Virus record (IMG/VR): IMGVR_UViG_3300010401_000036
Location: 1 to 64,000 of that record
Origin: a virus
Reading direction: 5' to 3' (one strand)
Length of the DNA stretch: 64,000 bases
The notes beneath the pieces were generated by a model, which saw nothing but the letters and a program-made list of their open reading frames with translations, did not search any database and was not told where the DNA came from. Shown here piece after piece: positions 29,555-29,720 of this stretch; position 1 is the stretch's first letter; every line of letters starts with the position of its first letter. A program made the position numbers and the translations under genes.

Positions 29555-29655
29555 CAACAACGGAAACTAGCAAGTAGCGAGAACGGGATATGGCCACTTA
29601 AGGCCGCTCTATTGCGAAGAAGTATCCGTTACTCTGCAGCGTAGTTTCCGTTGTT
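29555..29655 (-). ncRNA. Y RNA 2 (hairpin RNA without T/D arms)
   Basis: A perfect 13-bp end stem (29556-29568 with 29643-29655; extendable to 15) encloses the same motifs as Y RNA 1: CGCTGCAG (29634-29641) and TCGCTACTTGC (29570-29580). An inner stem (29582-29590 with 29622-29629, one bulge) and a small GGCC-type hairpin follow. No T-arm or D-arm sequence is visible. It abuts Y RNA 1 and 3, so the three are probably cut from one transcript. Confidence 0.75.
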
Positions 29656-29720
29656 GCCCGGCAAGCAACGAACTCAGCATCATCGTTTCAAGAGAAGTAG
29701 CTGAGCCCTTCAGCGCGGGC
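29656..29720 (-). ncRNA. Y RNA 3 (short hairpin RNA)
   Basis: 65 bases. End stem GCCCG/CGGGC, then motifs CGCTGAAG (29708-29715) and TCGTTGCTTGC (29661-29671) matching those of Y RNAs 1 and 2, then an inner CTCAGC/GCTGAG stem and a loop containing TACTTC, which also occurs in the other two. It is first in the transcription unit; the promoter at 29727-29755 predicts a start at its first base. Confidence 0.7.

Follow-up and report, generated by a model that had tools for sequence, protein, structure and literature searches.

Two short Y RNAs beside a phage Ro60 gene belong to a recurrent class that lacks the tRNA-like module

Work on bacterial Y RNAs has centred on the tRNA-like domain through which YrlA tethers PNPase (PMC8394870). 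The locus described here raises the question of what a Y RNA without such a domain might do for its Ro60 partner. The window analysed comprises 64,000 of the 67,381 bases of a phage record that also carries a gene for a Mu-like gpT head protein. Three Y RNAs follow one another head to tail on the minus strand, without gaps, ahead of ro60: Y RNA 3 (Y3; 29656–29720, with an outer stem reaching out to 29654–29722), a minimal module-less form of 65 nt; Y RNA 2 (Y2; 29555–29656), module-less with an extra GC hairpin and ~102 nt long; and Y RNA 1 (Y1; 29402–29556), ~155 nt long and bearing a circularly permuted tRNA-like (YrlA) module. Neighbouring outer stems touch or share 1–3 nt, and 36 nt separate the end of the array from the ro60/Rsr gene (28061–29365, minus), placing the Y RNAs directly beside a Ro60/TROVE gene on the same strand.

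The 434-aa product of this gene comprises TROVE and vWA domains (Pfam TROVE, 2.1e-15), and its AF2 model (pLDDT 85.6) gave full-length matches to the Ro60 of phage phiLo (9KOP/9L5Y), the Ro autoantigen (1YVP) and the Rsr of D. radiodurans (DrRsr, 2NVO). The HEAT-like ring and vWA domain of Ro60/Rsr proteins are recognizable from the Pfam TROVE and structural matches, and the vWA DxSxS motif (D294/S296/S298) is invariant in the alignment.

The array is set apart by an intrinsic terminator of the upstream gene (GCCGCCCTTCGGGGCGGC TTTTT; 29765–29782, minus). A promoter-like sequence on the minus strand (29727–29755) consists of TTGACA (29755–29750), a 17-nt spacer and a weak −10 element, GATATA (29732–29727); a promoter scan made no call there, and a start 7 nt past GATATA would coincide with the 5′ end of Y3. 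TTGAC[AG] also occurs at −33 to −49 of the first Y RNA in related loci L001, L002, L005–L008, L010, L011 and L016. Y3, Y2, Y1 and ro60 probably share a promoter, located where Y3 begins, and the joint transcript would then be cut into separate Y RNAs. Upstream of the array, also on the minus strand, lie a tRNA with a CUA (amber) anticodon and a tRNA-Pro (30394–30469 and 30312–30390), and a phage-encoded peptidyl-tRNA hydrolase gene, PTH2 (30479–30796), adjoins the tRNAs and Y RNAs. Amber recoding through the CUA tRNA was considered and set aside, as TAG terminates 7 of 54 long minus-strand ORFs and gives no sign of reassignment.

A preliminary description of 29555–29720 had proposed two further Y RNAs with strong end stems and repeated flanking motifs, and both its coordinates and its motifs proved right when read on the minus strand. 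Y1, Y2 and Y3 share an outer stem, a 1-nt bulge followed by 2 bp, the opposed core strands CGCTGMAG and CGYYRCTTGC, an inner stem and a TACTTC element. In Y2 and Y3, the 2 bp lead into an asymmetric internal loop and an ~8-bp inner stem, capped by a small loop in Y3 and by a short loop bearing a hairpin in Y2. The 5′ Ro core of Y3, CGCTGAAG (29708–29715, minus), comprises the bulged C, the GC of the 2-bp step and TGAAG; it is matched by the 3′ core CGTTGCTTGC (29661–29670, minus), and TACTTC (29694–29699, minus) lies 8 nt past the core AG. The corresponding elements of Y2 are CGCTGCAG (29634–29641, minus), CGCTACTTGC (29570–29579, minus) and a TACTTC 9 nt past the core AG (29619–29624, minus). 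In both RNAs the 5′ and 3′ ends pair, and the resulting long stem contains the bulge/internal-loop site for Ro binding. Three features went unremarked in the preliminary description: the gapless run of the array into Y1 and on to ro60, the overlap of the outer stems and the set distance between core and TACTTC.

Taken singly, the core strands are unspecific: in the 64-kb window CGYYRCTTGC has 5 matches against 1.6 expected, and CGCTGMAG occurs 15 times. The signal therefore resides in the combination, and the composite GCTGMAG-N4..12-TACTTC was found three times in the same window, a single copy per Y RNA, where 0.01 occurrences were expected by chance. The folds of Y2 (z=-5.5), Y1 (z=-4.7) and Y3 (z=-2.4) were stronger than those of dinucleotide shuffles, only moderately so for Y3, which nevertheless folds clearly better on the minus than on the plus strand (z=-0.8).

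The statement that Y2 and Y3 lack the tRNA-like module also held. The Rfam YrlA family (RF02553) matched Y1 alone (29442–29505; 43.4 bits, under the gathering cut-off of 69), no Rfam YrlA or tRNA match was obtained on Y2 or Y3, and the D, T and acceptor arms that characterize YrlA are missing from both. When distal loops were doubled to close the circular permutation and scanned with ARAGORN, a tRNA was called in 24 of 49 T-arm-bearing Y RNAs, Y1 included; the 405 shuffled loops gave no call, nor did the 32 module-less Y RNAs, Y2 and Y3 among them. In many module-bearing Y RNAs, we observed an anticodon-arm-like hairpin with a 7-nt loop (for example CTGTTAA or CTTGTAA) between TACTTC and the T arm, as in Y1 (29402–29556) and in L018, L016 and L030 (at −496, −176 and −638 relative to ro60), and the YrlA-type module may perhaps be a complete four-armed permuted tRNA, extending beyond D, T and acceptor arms. 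Hairpin loops of 7 nt numbered 29 overall against 10 expected (20/53 module RNAs, 9/32 module-less); the enrichment being mainly in module RNAs, no such hairpin is claimed for Y2 or Y3. By eye, a Y RNA of the closest relative (L014:5802–5960, −199 from ro60) has its arms in the order acceptor-like hairpin, D, anticodon-like and T, a circular permutation unlike the usual YrlA order. Three segments inside Y RNAs are annotated in phage records as ordinary tRNA genes (L016:2822–2889, L018:2173–2240 and L020:2811–2885; Thr, Gln, Ser).

Viral contigs, annotated phages and bacterial genomes supplied the related Ro60 loci, whose Y RNAs display a general anatomy of outer stem, 1-nt bulge, 2 bp, YGNAG opposite CGNNNNTT, inner stem, a TNCWTC element and a variable distal part. 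A relaxed scanner returned 83 matches (4 in reverse complements, 2.3 expected from shuffles), from which two low-scoring ones were removed to leave a set of 81 Y RNAs; the bulged nucleotide is T in 76 of these. Because pairing and portions of the core are built into this scanner as requirements, it was supplemented by two tests with less bias. The sequence-only rule NNYGNAG-N8/9-TNCWTC gave 111 matches in the 76.6 kb lying upstream of Ro60, against 24 in 423.6 kb of other sequence; the reverse strand upstream of Ro60 had 7. A covariance model (R1), built from 14 module-less Y RNAs of other loci with the window left out, ranked Y3 first in the window (48.6 bits, E=5.6e-11), with ends at exactly 29656 and 29720, and Y2 second (31.6 bits, E=2.8e-6, over 29565–29646), the next match having E=0.36; over the entire 67-kb record, Y3 and Y2 were again the best two. 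Both possess the features that define the short class, namely outer stem, bulge, 2 bp, YGNAG/CGN4TT core, ~8-bp inner stem and TNCWTC at +8/9.

Of the 37 related loci, 31 yielded module-less Y RNAs with model R1, always on the strand that encodes Ro60. Module-less Y RNAs are thus a recurrent class, widespread beside phage and bacterial Ro60 genes, and the suggestion of a new subclass, read as peculiar to this phage, found no support. Four related phage contigs (L005–L008) encode Ro60 and two module-less Y RNAs each; no tRNA-like Y RNA was found in these contigs, which span up to 41.8 kb and are possibly incomplete, and module-less Y RNAs are apparently the sole Y RNA class of some phages. A DNA similarity search with the array retrieved no phage record containing it whole; the matches were partial, covering 20% of the array in four Caulobacter phage records and ~9% in seven others, mostly within the tRNA-like module. 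In seven loci (L025, L026, L027, L028, L031, L038 and L040) from Asticcacaulis and related bacteria, a palindrome, GTTGC-N5-GCAAC, stands ~30–60 nt before the first scanner Y RNA, with one end imperfect in L040, and is a possible regulator operator.

Covariation supports the structure, a lack of compensatory changes in homologues being part of the refutation test set by the preliminary description. In an alignment of 16 short RNAs (A1), compensatory changes were present in 14 of 16 stem pairs. Paired cells reached 97.8%, a figure somewhat inflated by the initial choice of sequences with a pairing scanner, against 68.5% in shuffles, and covariation was 0.723 against 0.186, with slid controls at most 0.17; scanner bias cannot account for the pairing result, because control match counts were low. 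Anatomy, kinship and covariation in homologues together support the identification of Y2 and Y3 as Y RNAs. At the level of sequence comparison, these data establish both as genuine members of the family in existence, strand, structure, covariation, lack of a tRNA module and co-occurrence with Ro60.

The Ro core itself varies among lineages. Upstream of ro60 in relatives, the exact 5′ motif of the preliminary description is essentially absent, and among the relatives searched the exact 3′ motif recurs near ro60 in L014 only; these motifs are rare because other lineages carry GTGGYGNAG/CGYYNNTTCC, and the core was generalised accordingly. Core distance was 2.97 within a locus and 4.47 between loci (0/2000 shuffles). 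The second core pair has changed from G-C to C-G in all seven scanner matches of the window and L014 and in none of the 74 others, although one more sequence-only match, in L001, also has GC at this position. The Ro60 proteins of the window and L014 are sisters (74% identity, support 100/99). Such a concerted change within a locus would be expected if one Ro60 reads Y1, Y2 and Y3, and related duplication histories could contribute to the agreement.

The same variation bears on a proposed resemblance of the 3′ motif to the CACUUG strand of vertebrate Y RNAs, which failed as a family feature. At this position Y1 has CACUUG, Y2 UACUUG and Y3 UGCUUG; most relatives carry CGYYNNTTCC, and a C directly follows TT in 73 of the 81 Y RNAs. 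A conserved CACUUG 3′ strand facing a bulged C9, as in vertebrates, was not found. Homology was rejected on the differing register, judged by inspection, and on the absence of the word in relatives, and CACUUG here is a lineage variant.

Above the Ro core, separated from it by one 8-bp helix, stands the invariant TNCWTC. Of the 81 Y RNAs, 73 have it exactly 8 nt past the AG of the core and another 7 have it at 9 nt (80/81 in total), against 0.4% in shuffles; the scanner gave a TNCWTC-like word a small bonus and neither required it nor fixed its position. The element is equally frequent in Y RNAs with and without the tRNA module and is therefore part of the common scaffold.

What these short RNAs would do can be framed by known Ro60 particles. 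On the outer surface of Ro60, the area bound by the Y RNA stem overlaps with that for misfolded RNA, and Rsr is sequestered by Y RNA in D. radiodurans (PMC4030889). By analogy, a docking stem without a tRNA-like domain should gate Ro60 but provide no tether for PNPase. We consider it probable that Y2 and Y3 are real short-class Y RNAs that gate the RNA-binding surface of Ro60 by docking on the protein, with no tRNA-like tether; their expression, processing, Ro60 binding and gating are what we infer. Most likely, Y2 and Y3 dock on the outer face of Ro60 as other Y RNAs do, where they would occupy or gate the RNA-binding surface and, without the tRNA-like domain, be unable to tether a partner in the manner of YrlA. 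The outcome would be Ro60 particles that are inhibited, or that carry some other loop-bound partner, beside those tethered through Y1.

A different emphasis, possible though clearly less likely, is that Y2 and Y3 are alternative effectors, whose distal loops (TNCWTC with the loop or hairpins) bring another protein or RNA, so that each Y RNA programmes a distinct particle. Its support comes from the register of TNCWTC, fixed in RNAs with and without the module; TNCWTC and the 8-bp inner stem are conserved beyond what a pure decoy would seem to need, and the loop may itself be active. Two-hairpin loops like that of Y2 recur in distant phages, relatives in a six-sequence alignment being found in Caulobacter phage CcrColossus (L018), L012, L010, L020 and L021. 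The occurrence of module-less Y RNAs alone in L005–L008 fits poorly with Y RNAs that only brake a YrlA-tethered machine and is again compatible with an active short loop. Against this, the loops of Y3-class RNAs vary in sequence outside TNCWTC, and no partner is known. We also hold as a tentative reading that module-less Y RNAs are ancestral or self-sufficient partners of Ro60, with TNCWTC as a second recognition element for Ro60 or another partner; if true, Ro60 would have a function independent of tRNA mimicry.

Docking and gating by free Y RNAs remains our preferred account over cis-regulation, in which the stems would form part of the ro60 mRNA leader and, by binding Ro60, autoregulate the gene. 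The position of the array, directly upstream of ro60 and in the same orientation, accords with such a leader, but short Y RNAs also occur downstream of ro60 in L012, L013, L015 and L022, as far as ~5 kb from the ro60 start, and an R1 match in L002 lies 4.5 kb upstream of the gene, making this explanation improbable. Still harder to sustain is the idea that Y2 and Y3 are functionless, decayed YrlA copies that have lost the tRNA module: an RNA of L014 (−313) that retains a T-arm-like hairpin alone does resemble an intermediate, yet presence in 31 of 37 loci, the fixed TNCWTC register and above all covariation, which largely refutes decay, demonstrate selection. Chance stem-loops, terminators or transposon ends, suggested by a terminator-like pattern called within Y3, are refuted by the model R1 and composite-motif statistics and by a strict scanner whose controls gave 0 matches (reverse complements) or about 0 (shuffles).

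Short Y RNAs escape notice because the only Rfam family matched here is of the YrlA type, and none is present in the annotation of the phage records examined. Chen 2014 reportedly found a tRNA-like domain in one or more of the Y RNAs of each species. By implication there are others that have none, and Y RNAs without the module were thus a known possibility. A description of them as a covarying class, with TNCWTC in a fixed register, did not turn up in the literature examined. A short class that can be so defined, with strictly spaced TNCWTC and a core that tracks its own Ro60, renders testable the role of the docking stem itself, as well as the uses to which phages put Ro60 besides tRNA mimicry.

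Among known systems, operons in which one Ro60 gene is accompanied by several Y RNAs, as in the window, are exemplified by Salmonella YrlB and by the D. radiodurans Y RNA, a likeness judged on arrangement. YrlB is encoded in rsr-yrlBA-rtcBA (PMC7790460), whereas the Ro60/Y RNA locus of the window sits among phage structural genes, with no RNA repair genes seen beside it. The Ro60 of Thermus phage phiLo (9KOP, 9L5Y) is likewise phage-encoded and is the best structural match to the window protein, despite 24% identity. Vertebrate Y RNAs (Y1, Y3, Y4, Y5) resemble those of the window in their paired ends, bulged stem nucleotide (a C in the window too) and Ro60 partner, but on our own inspection differ in the spacing of CACUUG to the bulge and 2-bp step. 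YrlA (RF02553; Salmonella YrlA; Chen 2014 and Wang 2018, as covered in PMC8394870) is encoded beside Ro60, has a long stem of paired ends and is the type to which Y1 belongs; Y2 and Y3 differ from it in lacking T, D and acceptor arms and any Rfam match, and in their CGCTGMAG/CGYYRCTTGC core.
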